A DNA stretch of 28,763 nt, taken from positions 1 through 28,763 of IMG/VR virus record IMGVR_UViG_3300008469_000014. One strand, 5' to 3'. The stretch is from a virus. This document shows positions 6,812-28,763 of the stretch, in pieces (position 1 is the first letter of the stretch; every line of letters begins with the position of its first letter). The notes under the pieces are model-generated. The model had not been told where the DNA came from and ran no database searches. It saw only the letters and a list, made by a program, of their open reading frames with translations. The position numbers were made by a program, and so were the translations under genes.

Positions 6812-7699
6812 ATGCCAACAAAAAAAGAGTTAGAAGATACAGCGAGAGCTATTAATAATAAAGCTCCAGCTGCACCAAAAATTGATATGAGTAAAATATC
6901 AAACGTTCCTTCTTCAGTAATGAAATCAAGAAGATCAGGGAAATTTAATTTTACAGAAGCAGAGATGGTAGCTCTTCCTTCAAGAGGGAAATTATATAAG
7001 AATATAACAAACGATGTTGATATTCTTAATGGACAAATACAAATGTATCCAATGACAGTAAAAGATGAAGAAATCCTTTCTACCAGTAGATTTTTAAAAT
7101 CAGGAGCTGCCACAAGAATGGTAATTGATAATTGCATTGCTTCTGATATTGAAGCAAAAGATATACTTTTATATGATAGTAATTATTTATTATTTTTTCT
7201 AAGAAGCATTTCATATGGTAATGAGTATAAATTTAAATTAAAATGTAATAATCCATCTTGTGGTATGGAATTTGATCATACTGTAAAAATAGATGAATTA
7301 AAGTTTAATGAATTACCAGATGATATTAAAGAACCTTTTGTAGTAGAACTACCAAAATCAAAATATAAAGTTGTATTTGTATTACCAAGATTAGCACATT
7401 CTGAAGAAATTTATAATAGAAACTTAAAAAGAAAAAAATCTACTTCTTCAACAGATCAAAGAATGGTTGATAATTTAATAGTGACAACAATAAAAATTAT
7501 ATCTCCAGAAGGTGATGAAGTTCCTATGGGAGACTGGGAAGAATTTTATGAATCATTAATTGGAATGGATAGAGCAGAATTAAGTGAAAAAGCAAATTTT
7601 TCAACAGGAGTTGATACTCTTGAAGGAGTTGTTTGTCCTTATTGTGAAAGTGATTATTCTGGCACAATCCCAATAGGCGTTGATTTTTTTCGGTTTTAA
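6812..7699 (+). CDS. T4_baseplate-family protein (gp26-like)
   Basis: A 295-residue protein matching the pattern of the T4 gp26/T4_baseplate family, which helps form or assemble the central baseplate hub. Features are the conserved LPSRGKLYKN segment (near residue 55), YPMTVKDEEILS, a VIDNCIASDIEAKDILLYD stretch and LRSISYGNEY. These are followed by a zinc-finger-like pair, CNNPSCG (near 148) and CPYC (near 278). The ATG at 6812 has an AAAAGGAGAG ribosome binding site. The frame stops at TAA 7697-7699, two codons after a run of seven T, while the +1 frame continues to 7871 without a usable ATG. The full product may therefore include the downstream 60 residues by frameshifting. Confidence 0.7.
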   Translation: MPTKKELEDTARAINNKAPAAPKIDMSKISNVPSSVMKSRRSGKFNFTEAEMVALPSRGKLYKNITNDVDILNGQIQMYPMTVKDEEILSTSRFLKSGAATRMVIDNCIASDIEAKDILLYDSNYLLFFLRSISYGNEYKFKLKCNNPSCGMEFDHTVKIDELKFNELPDDIKEPFVVELPKSKYKVVFVLPRLAHSEEIYNRNLKRKKSTSSTDQRMVDNLIVTTIKIISPEGDEVPMGDWEEFYESLIGMDRAELSEKANFSTGVDTLEGVVCPYCESDYSGTIPIGVDFFRF

Positions 7700-7871
7700 T
7701 GAGGAAAATCTGACTAGAATACAGGAAAGTTTTTTTTACCTCATAAAATGGGGGTTCTCTTATTCTGACCTGAAAGATATTCCTGTTTTTGAATATAATA
7801 AATATGTATCTTTATTAAATAATTATTATAAAGAAAAAAAAGAAGCAGCAGATAAAGCAAAAGGATATTAA
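7680..7871 (+). CDS. Downstream frame, probable +1 frameshift extension of the gp26-like gene
   Basis: An open frame of about 60 codons overlaps the end of the gp26-like gene in the +1 frame and contains no ATG. The only possible starts are TTG 7680 or CTG near 7710, both without a good ribosome binding site. The peptide (FNEENLTRIQESFFYLIKWG, later EYNKYVSLLNNYYKEKKEA) is a compact aromatic helical domain of the kind found in small tail or baseplate assembly chaperones. The overlap reads GAT TTT TTT CGG TTT TAA in the upstream frame. A one-base slip at TTT-C joins the frames directly. If not frameshifted, it is a small gene with a weak TTG start. Confidence 0.55.
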   Translation: MIFFGFNEENLTRIQESFFYLIKWGFSYSDLKDIPVFEYNKYVSLLNNYYKEKKEAADKAKGY

Positions 7872-10263: not shown

Positions 10264-10578
10264 ATGGCAGAAAAAATGTTAAAAGCTTTAGGAGATAGAA
10301 TTATAATTAGATTTCAAGAAACAAAGCAAAGGAAAAGAGTTACTCCATCTGGAATCGAATTAATTGATGGAAAGAAAAGAGAAAAAATTTATGAAGCAAT
10401 AGTTGAAACTATTGGTAATAAAGTTGATTTAGAAACTTGTGGATTTAAAGTAGGAGATTCAATTATTTTTAATGATTATAATATTAAACAATTTGATGTT
10501 GAAAATTTTGAAAATCCTATGGAACCAATAAGAAAAGGAATTATTGGAGTAAATGATGTTTGGGGTATTTACGAGTAA
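10264..10578 (+). CDS. GroES-like co-chaperonin (gp31 type)
   Basis: A 104-residue protein with the Cpn10 pattern: LGDRIIIRFQE at residues 9-19, TPSGIEL after the mobile loop region, VGDSIIFNDYN near 72, and GIIGVNDVWGIYE at the end. GroES-type proteins cap the host GroEL. T4 gp31 replaces host GroES to fold the large capsid protein. The mobile loop (QRKRVTPSGIELIDG) keeps the hydrophobic GIEL contact expected to bind GroEL. It lies 8 nt after uvsX with AGGAG, in the same operon, and the next gene starts at the base after its stop codon. Confidence 0.85.
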   Translation: MAEKMLKALGDRIIIRFQETKQRKRVTPSGIELIDGKKREKIYEAIVETIGNKVDLETCGFKVGDSIIFNDYNIKQFDVENFENPMEPIRKGIIGVNDVWGIYE

Positions 10579-14712: not shown

Positions 14713-14741
14713 TTGACAAAAAAAGAATAATTTTGTATAAT
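14713..14741 (+). promoter_or_regulatory. Strong sigma-70 promoter for hsp20
   Basis: TTGACA (14713-14718), 17-bp spacer, TATAAT (14736-14741), a member of the seven-copy promoter family. In this copy the -10 region is the left arm of a 15-bp perfect inverted repeat (14727-14741 and 14745-14759), not seen in the other copies. Confidence 0.9.
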
Positions 14742-14759
14742 GTAATTATACAAAATTAT
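14727..14759. repeat. 15-bp perfect inverted repeat spanning the hsp20 -10 element and start site
   Basis: ATAATTTTGTATAAT (14727-14741), spacer GTA, ATTATACAAAATTAT (14745-14759). It covers the -10 hexamer and the expected start of transcription, where a bound dimer would block RNA polymerase. It also creates a mirrored TATAAT on the minus strand, but no -35 box accompanies it. Confidence 0.8.
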
Positions 14760-14766
14760 AAAAAAC

Positions 14767-14811
14767 GTTCGCCTCGTATGAGGGAACAAAATAAAATGCT
14801 CCAATGGAGGT
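14767..14811 (+). promoter_or_regulatory. hsp20 leader with two hairpins, one hiding the ribosome binding site
   Basis: Hairpin 1 (14767-14787) has an 8-bp stem, GUUC/GAAC plus CCUC/GAGG with one bulged G, and a GUAU loop. Hairpin 2 (14799-14809), CUCC-AAU-GGAG, pairs directly with the GGAGG Shine-Dalgarno (14806-14810) of hsp20. A short stem hiding the ribosome binding site of a small heat-shock gene is the usual design of RNA thermometers. That it responds to temperature is inferred. Confidence 0.5.
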
Positions 14812-14816
14812 TTGTT

Positions 14817-15263
14817 ATGAATTATAATAACAACATGAATGAATTAATGACAATTTTTGATAAATTGTTCGTTAATTTCGAAGATGTCTTTGAGGCACCA
14901 ACAGTTCAGAGAGGAGGTGAAATTTATCATGCTCCTAATTTTCCGCCAGTCAATGTTTATATTGATGAAAAAACTAAAGACCTAACTTTTGATTTTGCAA
15001 TCGCGGGTTATAAAAAAGAGGATATTTCAATTGAATTTGATGGTGATAAAATGATATTAACCATTAAAGAAAAATCTTCTACAAGAAAAGGATTAAAACT
15101 TTTAAAGAAAGGAATAAAAACTACAGAAGTTCGTTCCCATTTTACAGTTCCTGTTTCTAAATATGAAACAGATAAGGCGGAAGCAGAAATAAATGATGGT
15201 ATTCTTGCAATAACTATACCAGCTAGAGATGAAATAAAACCAAGATTATTAACAATTAAATAA
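14817..15263 (+). CDS. Small heat-shock protein, Hsp20/alpha-crystallin family
   Basis: A 148-residue small heat-shock protein, an ATP-independent holdase for unfolding proteins. The alpha-crystallin domain starts at PPVNVYIDEKTKDLTFDFAI and includes AGYKKEDISIEFDGDKMILT, the RSHFTVPVS strand and the AEINDGILAITIPA hallmark. A short C-terminal extension with LLTIK follows. The start is ATG 14817, with GGAGG 6 nt upstream; a longer in-frame extension back to 14733 would read through the promoter and is rejected. Hsp20 genes are known in T4-related cyanophages. It is a single-gene unit with its own strong promoter and terminator (15296-15318). Confidence 0.9.
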   Translation: MNYNNNMNELMTIFDKLFVNFEDVFEAPTVQRGGEIYHAPNFPPVNVYIDEKTKDLTFDFAIAGYKKEDISIEFDGDKMILTIKEKSSTRKGLKLLKKGIKTTEVRSHFTVPVSKYETDKAEAEINDGILAITIPARDEIKPRLLTIK

Positions 15264-22782: not shown

Positions 22783-24072
22783 ATGAGCTATTCTCAATTG
22801 CATCTTCATACACATATCGGTTCTCAGCTTGATGGAGTTGGAACACCAGAACAATATGCTAAATTAGCAAAAGAAATGGGGCATCCAGCATTAGCTATTA
22901 CTGACCATGGAAAAATGAATGGGCATTATGAACATTATTTAGCATGTAAAAAATATGGAATAAAACCTATATTTGGAGTAGAGGCTTATGTTGAATTTGA
23001 GCTTGAACGATATGAAGAAATAAAAGGTAAACAAAAGCGTCAAAGAAATAAGAACATGCATTTAATTCTTTTAGCTAAAAATGAAATAGGTTATAAAAAT
23101 TTATTAAAATTAAATTATCAATCTAATGCTGATGAAAAGCATTTTTATTATAAAAATCATATTTTACTTAATGATTTATTTAAGAATAAAGAAGGTATAA
23201 TCGTAGGCACTGCCTGTATGGGCTCTCCATTTGCAAAATTATATAGAGAAGAAGGCCCTGAAAAATCTGAAAAATTATTTAAGATTTTTGTTGATAAATT
23301 CGGTGATGATTTTTATACAGAAATACAAATGAATGAAATTACTCACAAAATAGATAATTTTGAAAAAGGACAAATTTCTGTAAATGAATGGATGATGAAA
23401 TTAGCTAATAAATACAATGTTCCTATCATATTAACAGGAGATGTTCATTATGCTAAACCAGGATTAGATAAAATTCAAACACTTGCAATTGCAATTAGTC
23501 GTGGAGTCACATTAGATGAATTAGATTGGGAATTAGAAGGAAAAAGTTTGTTTTATATGGATATTCCTGATTTTAAGGAATTTAATAAGAAATGGGGATA
23601 TGAATATACAGATGAGCAGATTGAAGAATGGTGCGATAACTCTCAAATAATTGCTGATAAATGCAATTATGAATTTAAAGAAAGAAATAGATTAATACTT
23701 CCATCACTTACAGATAATGATGATGCTTTATTAGTTAAAGAAAGTAAAAAAGGATTAGTTAAGAAACTTAATGTTGAAAGTTGGGATGAAGTTCCTATTA
23801 AATATAAAAAAAGATTAGCAAAAGAAATAGAAATATTATTAAGAAAAGGTTTTGCTTCTTATATTATGATATTATGGGATGTATTTAATTTTGCTAAAAA
23901 AGAAGAAATAATGAGAGGGCCTGCTAGAGGGAGCGGTGGTGGCTCTTTAACTCTTTATTCTTTAGATATAACTACATTAGATCCTATTAAATATGGATTA
24001 ATTTTCGAGCGTTTCTTAAGTAATGAAAGAAGTGCTGATGTAGTATATGATTATTTCAATGAAGCAGTATAA
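22783..24072 (+). CDS. DNA polymerase III alpha, N-terminal piece: PHP domain and start of palm
   Basis: A 429-residue protein matching the first third of bacterial DnaE. The PHP metal-binding domain is well preserved: HLHTH (residues 7-11), ITDHG with D41 and H42, GVEAYV with E67, and TGDVHY near residue 220. Such intact PHP sites have proofreading nuclease activity in some DnaE enzymes. The polymerase part ends with GPARGSGGGSLTLYSL and LIFERFLSNER, which in DnaE directly precedes the first catalytic motif PDxDxDF. Here it is followed by a short divergent tail, SADVVYDYFNEAV, then stop. The catalytic aspartates lie in the separate gene at 25638. The start at ATG 22783 has AAGGAG. It needs its partners to polymerise. 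Confidence 0.9.
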   Translation: MSYSQLHLHTHIGSQLDGVGTPEQYAKLAKEMGHPALAITDHGKMNGHYEHYLACKKYGIKPIFGVEAYVEFELERYEEIKGKQKRQRNKNMHLILLAKNEIGYKNLLKLNYQSNADEKHFYYKNHILLNDLFKNKEGIIVGTACMGSPFAKLYREEGPEKSEKLFKIFVDKFGDDFYTEIQMNEITHKIDNFEKGQISVNEWMMKLANKYNVPIILTGDVHYAKPGLDKIQTLAIAISRGVTLDELDWELEGKSLFYMDIPDFKEFNKKWGYEYTDEQIEEWCDNSQIIADKCNYEFKERNRLILPSLTDNDDALLVKESKKGLVKKLNVESWDEVPIKYKKRLAKEIEILLRKGFASYIMILWDVFNFAKKEEIMRGPARGSGGGSLTLYSLDITTLDPIKYGLIFERFLSNERSADVVYDYFNEAV

Positions 24073-24274: not shown

Positions 24275-25594
24275 ATGGATAAAACAACAATGGATAAAAC
24301 AACAAAAGATGATCTTAAAATAATTATTGATAAATTTATGAAAGACTTTGATAGCTTAGGCTATGAAGTAAACAAAGAATTAAAAAAAGCAATATTACTA
24401 GCAGAATTTTCAGAAAAGAATATAATAGTATCTGGAAGCGCAGGAACTGGCAAATCAACGTTTATAGATTTATTTAAAGCTAATACTAAAAAAAATGTTG
24501 TAGTTCTTGCTCCAACTGGAGTGGCTGCTGTTAATGTTGGTGGTGTTACAATTCATTCCTTCTTTCGATTAGCTTTTGGTATAATTAATAAATATGCTAT
24601 AATCTATTCAAATCGAGAAATAGTAAATAATATAGATGTAATTGTTATAGATGAAATTTCTATGGTTAGAGTAGATTTAATGGATGCAATTGATTATCAA
24701 TTAAGAGCATTAACAGGAAACTCAAATAAACCTTTTGGTGGTATAAAAATTGTCGCAGTTGGCGACTTATTTCAATTACCACCTATTGTTCAAAGAGGTA
24801 GCCCTGATGAAAGATATATAAGAGATACTTTTTATTCTCCTTGGTTCTTTAGTGCTCCTGAGATTGGAGATTTCACAGTTGTAGAATTAAATAAAATATA
24901 TAGGCAGCATGATGAAAAATTTACAAGTGTTCTTAATAAAATAAGAATAGGGAAACAAAGTTGGGATGACTTAAAATATATTAATTCAAGAGTAGTAAAA
25001 GAAGAAGAACTTGGAGATGGATATATTTATTTATCCACAATTAATAAAACTGCTGACAAAATAAATAAAGAAAAACTTGCTGAAATAAATGAACCTTCAA
25101 AACATTACTATTCATCTATTACTGGAGATTTTCCATTTAATTCATATCCAGCACCTGCTGATTTAGAATTAAAAATTGGAGCTCAGGTTATGATATTAAG
25201 AAATGGTCCTAATTGGTATAATGGACAAATTGGGACTATTGTAAAATTAACAGATTATTCAATTTCAGTAATGCTTGACAATATAGTATATGAAGTATCT
25301 AAAGAAAAATGGATTAATGGGGATTATGAATTAAAGAATGGAAAAGTTCAAATAGTTGAAAAAGGAACATTTTTTCAATATCCATTAAAACTTGCATATG
25401 CAATAACAATTCATAAATCGCAAAGCAAAACATATGATAAAGTTTATATAGATTTAGGAAATGGTGCATTTAGTGCTGGTCAAACATATGTTGCATTATC
25501 AAGATGTAAAACTCTTGAAGGTATTGGATTAAAATATAAAATTGAAAAAAGAGATATAATAGTAGATAAAGTTCTACAAGAAAATTTTACTTGA
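24275..25594 (+). CDS. SF1B helicase, Pif1/Dda-like
   Basis: A 439-residue 5'-to-3' DNA helicase. Motif I VSGSAGTGKST is near residues 53-61, followed by APTGVAAVNVGGVTIHSFF (motif Ia), motif II VIDEIS near 130, motif III AVGDLFQLPP near 160, and C-terminal motifs TIHKSQSKT and YVALSRCKTLEG. The QLPP and HKSQ patterns place it in the Pif1/RecD2/Dda group. T4 Dda, a helicase that helps start replication and remove bound proteins, has the same length. No Shine-Dalgarno is present. The first 15 bases (ATGGATAAAACAACA) are duplicated, so a second in-frame ATG lies at 24290. The TGA stop is part of the next promoter. It separates dnaE-N from dnaE-M. Confidence 0.9.
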   Translation: MDKTTMDKTTKDDLKIIIDKFMKDFDSLGYEVNKELKKAILLAEFSEKNIIVSGSAGTGKSTFIDLFKANTKKNVVVLAPTGVAAVNVGGVTIHSFFRLAFGIINKYAIIYSNREIVNNIDVIVIDEISMVRVDLMDAIDYQLRALTGNSNKPFGGIKIVAVGDLFQLPPIVQRGSPDERYIRDTFYSPWFFSAPEIGDFTVVELNKIYRQHDEKFTSVLNKIRIGKQSWDDLKYINSRVVKEEELGDGYIYLSTINKTADKINKEKLAEINEPSKHYYSSITGDFPFNSYPAPADLELKIGAQVMILRNGPNWYNGQIGTIVKLTDYSISVMLDNIVYEVSKEKWINGDYELKNGKVQIVEKGTFFQYPLKLAYAITIHKSQSKTYDKVYIDLGNGAFSAGQTYVALSRCKTLEGIGLKYKIEKRDIIVDKVLQENFT

Positions 25595-25637: not shown

Positions 25638-26525
25638 ATGGAAGAAAAAATAACATATAAAATGCTTAAAGAATTATGTGATAAAAAAATAATGGAGTTA
25701 TATCCAAATAACACAGAACTTCATAAAGCATATAAAAAAGAAATTAAAGCTGCTGAAAGATTTTATAAAGCAGGTAGAAATCTTTATGATGAATTATGTT
25801 ATAGTGGTAAAAAAATAGATACAAGATATGCAATTCCGTATATATTAGAATTAACAAAAGAGTTTACAGGTGAGCCTCCAGTTTATATTCAAGTAAGAGG
25901 AGGGGATTCAGGTGCTATAGATGTAGATAGTGATTTTGCCCCTGCTGGAAGAGAAAAAATATATAATTATTTAAAAGAAAAATATGGAGATGAAAGAGTT
26001 TTGCATGTTGGAACTTTTTCAACTCTTGGGCCTGCATCAGCAGCAAAAGATGTTTTACGTGCTAATGGAATTGATTTTGGTAAATCAAATAAATTTACAA
26101 AAGCTTTAGAAAAGATGGAAACTTGGGAAGAAAACCTTCAAAGAATAAAAGGAGAAGATCCTGATAATTGGAAATTTTATTTAAAAAATAAAGAAATCCT
26201 TGATGATGTTCCACATTTAATTGGAAAAATTAGACAAAGTGGAAAACATGCTGGAGGATTTGTAGTTAGTGATAAAGAGATTTATAATTATATTCCTGTA
26301 GATAGAGCTAATGGGGAAGTTGTAACAGCATATCCAGAAAGCGGAGGAAATTCTGTTTTAGATACAATAGGAATAATTAAATATGATATTCTTGGTATAT
26401 CTATTCTTGATGTTATGACTGAAGCAATTGAAATGATTGATGAAGATATATATGAAATAGAAGAAGATGGTATTAAAAAAATGGTTCCAGAATCTTATAT
26501 TGACAAAGAAATAAAGGAGATATAA
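25638..26525 (+). CDS. DNA polymerase III alpha, middle piece: catalytic palm
   Basis: A 295-residue protein covering the catalytic palm of DnaE. It contains IDVDSDF (D95, D97, D99), corresponding to the PDFDVDF motif with catalytic D401 and D403 of E. coli DnaE, then GDERVLHVGTFSTLGPASAA, SGKHAGGFVV at 201-210, and IIKYDILG with D250, corresponding to D555. All three catalytic aspartates are therefore on this one polypeptide. The first 90 residues (MEEKITYKMLKELCDKKIME onward) have no counterpart at this place in ordinary DnaE, where PDFDVDF directly follows FERFLNPER. They may be an assembly domain. It is followed immediately by the gene at 26526. Confidence 0.85.
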   Translation: MEEKITYKMLKELCDKKIMELYPNNTELHKAYKKEIKAAERFYKAGRNLYDELCYSGKKIDTRYAIPYILELTKEFTGEPPVYIQVRGGDSGAIDVDSDFAPAGREKIYNYLKEKYGDERVLHVGTFSTLGPASAAKDVLRANGIDFGKSNKFTKALEKMETWEENLQRIKGEDPDNWKFYLKNKEILDDVPHLIGKIRQSGKHAGGFVVSDKEIYNYIPVDRANGEVVTAYPESGGNSVLDTIGIIKYDILGISILDVMTEAIEMIDEDIYEIEEDGIKKMVPESYIDKEIKEI

Positions 26526-27312: not shown

Positions 27313-28763
27313 ATGAAAATAATAAGAAAAGTAACAAAGCACGAACTAAAAAATCATTTATATAATTTAAATATAAATGATTCAAATTTATATAAAGAAG
27401 CTAATAATCCACATATGTTAGGAATATTTCAGTTAAATGGAGCATTAGCACATGAAATAATTAAAAAAATAAAGCCTAAAAACTTTGAAGAGATAAATGC
27501 TGTATCTGCATTTGCTAGGCCAGGAACATCAAGTTTCGTAGAGCAATATGTTGAAAATAGAGAAAAAGGTAAATCTCCTTATCCAGATCAAGTTAAAGAT
27601 TTATTAAAAGAAACCCAATCAATAGTTTTATATCAAGAACAAGCTATGTCTATTTTTAATAAAATAGGTGGATTTACATTAGAAGAAACTGATGCAATTC
27701 GTGGTTTGATGAAAAAACTTGGAAAGGCAGATAAGAAGAAAGCAGATTTAGATAAATGGGATAAAGTAATTGAAAAATTTATTGCTGGCGCTCAAGAAAA
27801 TGGTATTTCTCCAAGAGATGCAAAGCTTGTTGCTGCTGATATGCTTAAAATGAGCAGCTATTCATTTAATAAATCACATTCTACAGCATATGCTTATATT
27901 GCAGCACAAACATTATATTTATCATATTACTTTAGGAAATATTTTTATGCATCAGTTCTTCATTATGAAGTTGGAAGAGATAAATATCTTCTTGAAAGAT
28001 TGAAATCTGTAAAAGCGCAAGGATTTAATATATTACCTCCAGATGTAAATAAATCTAAAGTTAGTTTATCTCCAGTTAAAGAGAGTGAAAAAGCAATAAT
28101 ATTTGGATTATTTGATGTTAAAGGAATTGGAGAAAAACCAGCAACTACTATAGTGTCTTTACAACCATTTAAAAGTTTTATGGATTTTATATTAAAAACT
28201 CAAGGAATGAGAATTTCAGCAATTGTTATTAAAGCATTAATAAGTATTGGTGCTTTTGATGAAATTTATAAATATGATAGAAAGAGATTACTTAATACCT
28301 TTAATATTTATTGGAAAAATAAAAAGACAATAAAAGTTCCAGAAAAATTAAAAGCAATTTGGGCAGAAGCAGAAAAAGAAACTGCAAAAACTACTCCTGA
28401 AATAACATATGATGAGCTAAGAGAATTTGAAAGAAAGTATTTAGGATTTAACTTTTTTGTTAATCCATTTACAGATAAATTTTTAGAAGCTGTTGATTTA
28501 ATGGAGAAAAAAGGAATTATATATTCTTCTTTTGATAAAGTTAAAAGAAGCTCTGCTAAAGTTCCAATAATAATAAATAAAATAAAAACTCTTAATGATA
28601 AAAATAAAAAAGAGATGGCATTTCTTGATATTGAAGATAAAGCAGGAGATGAAATTAGTGTGCCTATATTTCAAAGTTTTTGGAAAATATTAAAGAATAG
28701 ATTTGTTGAAGGTAAAATTCATATGATAAATTTATATCTTGATGATGACCAAATTATGTTTGG
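27313..28763 (+). CDS. DNA polymerase III alpha, C-terminal piece (fingers and beyond), partial
   Basis: The frame starts at ATG 27313 and is open to the right edge (483 codons visible). It matches DnaE after the third catalytic aspartate: NPHMLGIFQLNG (DnaE GVFQLES), INAVSAFARPG (DnaE IALVALFRPG), SIVLYQEQAMSI (DnaE GIILYQEQVMQI), SSYSFNKSHSTAYAYIAAQT (DnaE [20 protein letters not shown]), NILPPDVN, and IFGLFDVKGIGEKPAT (the helix-hairpin-helix approach). A tail region with LGFNFFVNPF follows. These are the finger domain, primer contacts and the start of the C-terminal domains. There is no Shine-Dalgarno and a leaderless start is expected. The C-terminus, where clamp binding is expected, lies outside the window. 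Confidence 0.9.
   Translation, partial: MKIIRKVTKHELKNHLYNLNINDSNLYKEANNPHMLGIFQLNGALAHEIIKKIKPKNFEEINAVSAFARPGTSSFVEQYVENREKGKSPYPDQVKDLLKETQSIVLYQEQAMSIFNKIGGFTLEETDAIRGLMKKLGKADKKKADLDKWDKVIEKFIAGAQENGISPRDAKLVAADMLKMSSYSFNKSHSTAYAYIAAQTLYLSYYFRKYFYASVLHYEVGRDKYLLERLKSVKAQGFNILPPDVNKSKVSLSPVKESEKAIIFGLFDVKGIGEKPATTIVSLQPFKSFMDFILKTQGMRISAIVIKALISIGAFDEIYKYDRKRLLNTFNIYWKNKKTIKVPEKLKAIWAEAEKETAKTTPEITYDELREFERKYLGFNFFVNPFTDKFLEAVDLMEKKGIIYSSFDKVKRSSAKVPIIINKIKTLNDKNKKEMAFLDIEDKAGDEISVPIFQSFWKILKNRFVEGKIHMINLYLDDDQIMF

Follow-up and report, generated by a model that had tools for sequence, protein, structure and literature searches.

We describe a gp26-like gene in a viral DNA of 28,763 nucleotides (IMG/VR record IMGVR_UViG_3300008469_000014, positions 1 to 28,763; hereafter the window) that very probably yields two proteins, one short and one fused, through a +1 ribosomal slip at UUU_CGG, which would form a pair like lambda G/GT. 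The frameshift had been proposed in an earlier sequence-only reading of the window, and the conservation of both the site and the extension in a clade of related loci supports it as the best explanation.

The proposed shift site in the window

The gp26-like gene lies at 6812..7699 on the plus strand. Its 0-frame product, the putative short, G-like form, has 295 residues and ends in ...IPIGVDFFRF, with an end residue that relatives share. The protein matches PF12322 (T4 base plate protein) with an E value of 2.8e-16, over positions 13-218 of the 219 in the profile, and phrog_150 (baseplate hub) with an E value of 5.1e-19. The last 0-frame codons are exactly those claimed before: GAT (7682-7684), TTT (7685-7687), TTT (7688-7690), CGG (7691-7693), TTT (7694-7696) and a TAA stop (7697..7699, plus strand), one codon past CGG. 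According to our proposal, UUU at 7688..7690 occupies the ribosomal peptidyl (P) site and CGG at 7691..7693 the aminoacyl (A) site, both on the plus strand, and tRNA-Phe slips to UUC at 7689-7691.

From 7680 onwards the +1 frame meets no stop until 7869-7871 and, as the sequence-only reading had noted, it contains no ATG; its sole possible start is a TTG at 7680. The part of this frame beyond the slip (7692..7871, plus strand) encodes a predicted gp51-like T domain of 59 residues, GFNEENLTRIQESFFYLIKWGFSYSDLKDIPVFEYNKYVSLLNNYYKEKKEAADKAKGY, followed by the stop. The suspected rarity of CGG is borne out, as this codon occurs once among the 8,177 codons of 27 window open reading frames (ORFs; GC content 26%), and that one occurrence is the slip site.

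Taken by itself, the window gives modest support for a frameshift. A shifted frame that stays open for at least 55 codons past the stop and has no ATG is found in 4 of the 27 window genes, largely because such a frame may run into the neighbouring gene, and a long shifted-frame extension is on its own a poor criterion. It is the conservation among relatives, set out below, that raises the extension far above chance.

Conservation of the site and the extension in close relatives

The window belongs to a clade with nine other distinct loci (L002-L007, L010, L028 and L029). Each of these relatives reads TTY TTT, then CGG, CGC, CGT or TGC, one codon and a stop (TAA or TAG), with the +1 frame continuing for at least 55 codons. 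The P-site codon is invariably TTT (10 of 10 clade loci), the Phe codon that precedes it varies between TTT and TTC, and the A-site codon is CGN in all loci except L004, where it is TGC. Differences per site in the +1 frame amount to 0.40, 0.28 and 0.53 at the first, second and third codon positions, highest at the third, and the ratio of nonsynonymous to synonymous substitution (dN/dS) in the extension is 0.08-0.28 in the 10 of 21 pairs for which dS could be estimated. To judge from this pattern, purifying selection acts on the +1 extension. Since the relatives also keep the 0-frame stop, a short product should be made alongside the fused one; the sequence-only reading had named the fusion as the true product, and what is supported is the fusion, not its being the only product.

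The extension might instead be a separate gene that starts internally, from the TTG at 7680 or from a non-standard codon, and is never fused to gp26. The presence of that TTG and the TAATG stop-start overlaps of two distant relatives, L015 and Cygsa01, speak in its favour. However, no ATG, GTG or TTG precedes the extension in the +1 frame of L002, L004, L005, L006 or L010, the slip codons are conserved, and the TAATG of the window lies in the -1 frame and yields only MRKI, all of which makes a separate gene very unlikely. The sequence-only reading had named, as grounds for rejecting the frameshift, relatives in which the two parts are plainly distinct genes with starts of their own; the close relatives retain the overlap, and several of them offer no start codon for the extension. 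Truly separate genes appear only at greater distance, as the duplicated pair of T4-type phages and in the two distant phages with an apparent stop-start overlap. In these two, Cygsa01 (L212:2800-2982) and L015 (around 2910), the extension frame begins with an ATG that overlaps the gp26 stop (TAATG), which suggests stop-start coupling instead of a clear slip site.

Seven consecutive T in the window could point to a sequencing error, or to a real one-base insertion in the run, with gp26 and the extension forming a single continuous frame. Neither is credible, as independent assemblies share the same frame relation even where there is no long run: L002 reads TTC TTT CGG (in context, TTTCTTTCGG) and L004 reads TTC TTT TGC (TTCTTTTGC). 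Relatives carrying the fused protein in one frame had been suggested as a check, and none was seen among the surveyed loci. The same two loci argue against transcriptional slippage, in which the T run would give rise to a fused message, and against a -2 shift. Runs of 6-7 T do occur at most UUU_CGN sites of the wider survey described below, yet they are only 3-4 long in 5 of 22 UUU_CGN loci and in 21 of 82 U/CUU_UNN loci, and we regard slippage of the polymerase as most improbable.

A last set of alternatives keeps a ribosomal shift and places it differently. UUU UAA follows directly after CGG, allowing a stop-stimulated slip of the prfB kind at UUU_UAA, and U UUU UUU is present in the window. 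But L028 reads CGG TTC TAG and L029 reads CGG CTA TAG, leaving no slippery codon ahead of the stop, so UUU_UAA is not the common slip site; the -1 frame of the window ends within a few codons and L003 has no heptamer; and a -2 shift would involve mispairing in L002. A shift at any of these places is highly improbable, and a +1 slip at UUU_CGG is the reading that we follow below.

A shifted-frame extension across gp26-like loci

For a first wide survey, 180 distinct gp26-like loci were gathered from isolates and by means of four additional profile scans, and the extension frame was located with an extension profile at a threshold of at least 10 bits. Extensions in a shifted frame had served to build the seed profile, and in-frame ORFs were scored as well. 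The threshold was reached in 168 of the 180 loci, and in every case the frame was shifted, by +1 in 114 loci and by -1 in 54; in none of the 180, in-frame ORFs included, did an in-frame extension score best. The 12 loci below 10 bits comprise 5 truncated contigs and 7 divergent loci. At the -1 loci the sequence is U UUU UUC or U UUU UUU nearly throughout, while the +1 loci divide into UUU_CGN (22 distinct loci, with TTT in the P site in 22 of 22), UUU/CUU_UNN, mostly UGG (82), and others (8). In a second set of 82 loci, made up of cyanophage-type contigs and six isolates, the -1 frame was best in 81, IME-SM1 being the exception, and the heptamer was found in 79. By profile score, nearly every untruncated gp26-like gene examined thus has a gp51-like extension that overlaps it in a shifted frame, and the Phe-Phe position is the same throughout. 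A tblastn search of phages with the extension alone gave no match.

In a quick gp26 tree the +1 loci form one group of 85 rows with an SH-aLRT value of 94 and two exceptions, and two changes of direction are enough to explain the tree. Because its rooting and deep branches are unsure, we can only infer that the ancestral shift was -1.

The survey also touches on existing annotations. In cyanophages a "baseplate hub assembly catalyst" (gp51) of about 45-54 residues is annotated separately (L209:3232-3369, L210:3210-3374), and that of S-RIM8 probably represents the C-terminal end of a protein made by -1 frameshifting. Synechococcus phage S-SCSM1 (L210:3180-3374) keeps the U UUU UUC heptamer, but its -1 frame runs into a stop and its extension lies in the +1 frame with an ATG of its own; an indel, an error or decay may be the cause.

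Relation to T4 gp26 and gp51

In T4, gene 26 and gene 51 are two distinct, divergent genes, with no frameshift at gene 26. Both products match PF12322 strongly (gp26, 8.8e-64; gp51, 3.9e-52) and are therefore paralogues, and gp51 has an extra C-terminal segment relative to gp26. With the +1 extension, coverage of phrog_150 by the window protein grows from positions 18-233 to 19-277 of 282, and the stretch gained is one that T4 gp51 also fills. In profile comparisons the window extension matches the cyanophage extensions at 90%, and these match gp51 C-termini at 96%.

Among isolates in which the family is detectable, two PF12322 copies each are found in T4, AM101 and phiAS4, and one each in 15 others; immuto, Mel-JY01 and SCTP-2 lie below the reach of the profile and outside this count. 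Of the 15 single-copy isolates, Cygsa01 resembles stop-start coupling; S-SCSM1 is irregular. A 201-kb relative of the window (G001) also has a single copy. The paralogues gp26 and gp51 differ by the extension and, on this count, phages without the shift have two copies of the family where the others have one.

Proposed mechanism and role in tail assembly

A conserved site, a coding extension, a shared anatomy and a contrast in copy number are what comparison of the sequences provides, and from these one may propose the following model. Most ribosomes would reach the TAA and release the 295-residue gp26-like protein. A minority would stall at the slip site, where UUU occupies the P site and the codon to be decoded in the A site is the rare CGG; the peptidyl-tRNA-Phe would move by +1 onto UUC, and reading would resume as GGU UUU AAU..., resulting in a 352-residue fusion that carries the gp51-like helical extension. 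The +1 slip of the window would be one form of a dual-product scheme of the gp26/gp51 family, the -1 form at U UUU UUC being that of cyanophages and several jumbo phages. In this scheme the short form would coat the tape-measure protein and the scarce long form would bring in parts of the tail tube or hub through its additional domain. Gene duplication would give T4 the equivalent pair, with gene 26 as the short and gene 51 as the long version.

The arrangement of tail genes in some relatives agrees with such a role: in LIS04 and immuto the gp26-like gene sits between those for the tail tube and the tape measure, the place that G/GT holds in lambda, and in SP-15 a gp26-like gene lies between the tube gene and a long tail gene. 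A model of the unfused gp26 built from an alignment is confident, with a predicted local distance difference test (pLDDT) score of 86.7, and matches other predicted phage hub proteins and no solved structure. A single-sequence structure prediction of the fused protein was discarded (pLDDT 34). The sequence-only reading had called this a baseplate gene; its membership in the gp26-like family holds, whereas an assembly chaperone of the gp26/gp51 type is a better reading of the protein than a baseplate part of the virion.

Several points weigh against this model. The gp26-like gene of the window is not adjacent to a tape-measure gene and is followed by an SSB-like gene. The direct hhalign comparison of the window T domain with T4 gp51 is weak (78%) and becomes firmer only via the cyanophage intermediates. 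Searches of the PDB by sequence and by fold gave no significant match; the HK97 chaperone 2ob9 came at rank 31 with an E value of 8.2, and we do not take it as structural evidence. No conserved stimulatory RNA structure was found downstream of the site (z -0.4 in the window), and a Shine-Dalgarno-like element is not common to the UUU_CGN loci (5 of 22). Finally, the occurrence of the shift, its efficiency and the chaperone role are all deduced from sequence comparison.

Of the stimulators sought, RNA structure and Shine-Dalgarno-like elements, none is apparent besides the rare codon. A G-rich tetramer does occur in 37 of 82 U/CUU_UNN loci, mostly near -12, and may reflect merely the conserved Pro-Ile-Gly codons. 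The 201-kb relative encodes tRNA-Phe(GAA) and tRNA-Arg(UCU), with no CGN-reading tRNA found by ARAGORN; this fits a hungry A site and is not a test of it. The same genome (L219/L220; L219:12523-12807) carries a phage transfer-messenger RNA and about 20 tRNAs, among them Phe-GAA, Arg-UCU and one with a CUA (amber) anticodon.

On balance, we favour, with fair though not high confidence, the view that the whole T4 superfamily has gp26 and gp26-51 as its tail-assembly (tape-measure) chaperone pair, and that the -1 shift which produced this pair ancestrally, at a fixed Phe-Phe position, gave way to a +1 shift (UUU_CGN, UUU/CUU_UGG) within a single large clade and to gene duplication in phages of the T4 type. 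The chaperone role is not a new idea, as the authors of Acinetobacter phage AM101 label gp26, gp51 and gp28 "tape measure protein assembly chaperone". In the open-access literature searched we found no description of a gp26/gp51 frameshift, and both the frameshift and the contrast of duplication for frameshift appear to be new.

If a frameshifted pair is indeed represented in T4 by its duplicated counterpart, gp26 and gp51, the tail assembly of this phage would join the general G/GT scheme, the essential T4 protein gp51 would be explained, and UUU_CGN would be a natural class of +1 site in bacteria. Many phage genome annotations, in which the extension is overlooked or called a short separate gene, would be corrected. 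A natural series in which a single frameshift position varies in direction and slip sequence would also be useful for studying the origin of +1 sites.

Other genes of the window

In the window, DNA polymerase III alpha is divided among three ORFs (22783-24072, 25638-26525 and 27313-28761): the first two each hold part of the match to its NTPase domain, and the third contains the finger domain. Small ORFs intervene, as does a Pif1-like helicase gene (24275-25594). A Cpn10-like co-chaperonin (10264-10578) and an HSP20-like protein (14733-15263) are also encoded.

Comparison with known systems

In bacteria and their phages, +1 shifts of the direction proposed here are known from prfB (CUU_UGA), Listeria phage PSA and SPP1, and those of SPP1 and PSA extend structural proteins. 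These shifts require a stop codon in the A site, whereas in the window gene a rare sense codon stands there. Influenza A PA-X is made by a +1 shift at UUU_CGU. The parallel, which the sequence-only reading had drawn, is apt, with UUU_CGN used at 22 distinct loci: the codon pair class is the same (UUU in the P site, CGN in the A site, +1), although the gene is unrelated and the virus eukaryotic. PA-X frameshifting is discussed in PMC5009743.

The tail-assembly chaperones gpG and gpGT of lambda and their counterparts (Levin 1993; Xu, Hendrix and Duda 2004, as cited in PMC5009743 and PMC2147016) share with the present system the overlapping ORFs, a shift near the end of the first, here indicated by conservation, the short and long products, here predicted, and, in LIS04 and immuto, the position directly upstream of the tape measure. 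They differ in that the lambda shift is -1 and ours +1, that the window gene is not beside a tape-measure gene, and that gp26-like proteins resemble known G proteins neither detectably in sequence nor significantly in fold and carry zinc-ribbon-like cysteines. We infer that gp26/gp26-51 works like the lambda G/GT pair, and do not class the two as homologous.

For phage 0305phi8-36, a pair of paralogues has been proposed as a replacement of the G/GT frameshift (PMC2147016), the same substitution that we propose for T4, in a different phage lineage. In T4 itself, gp26 and gp51 are hub assembly chaperones, and gp51 is reported to be missing from the virion particle (PMC3004832). They belong to the same Pfam family as the window protein, with gp51 consisting of a gp26-like domain and a C-terminal extension that matches the T domain; the difference is that T4 has two divergent genes and no gene 26 frameshift, where the window would make both products from one gene.
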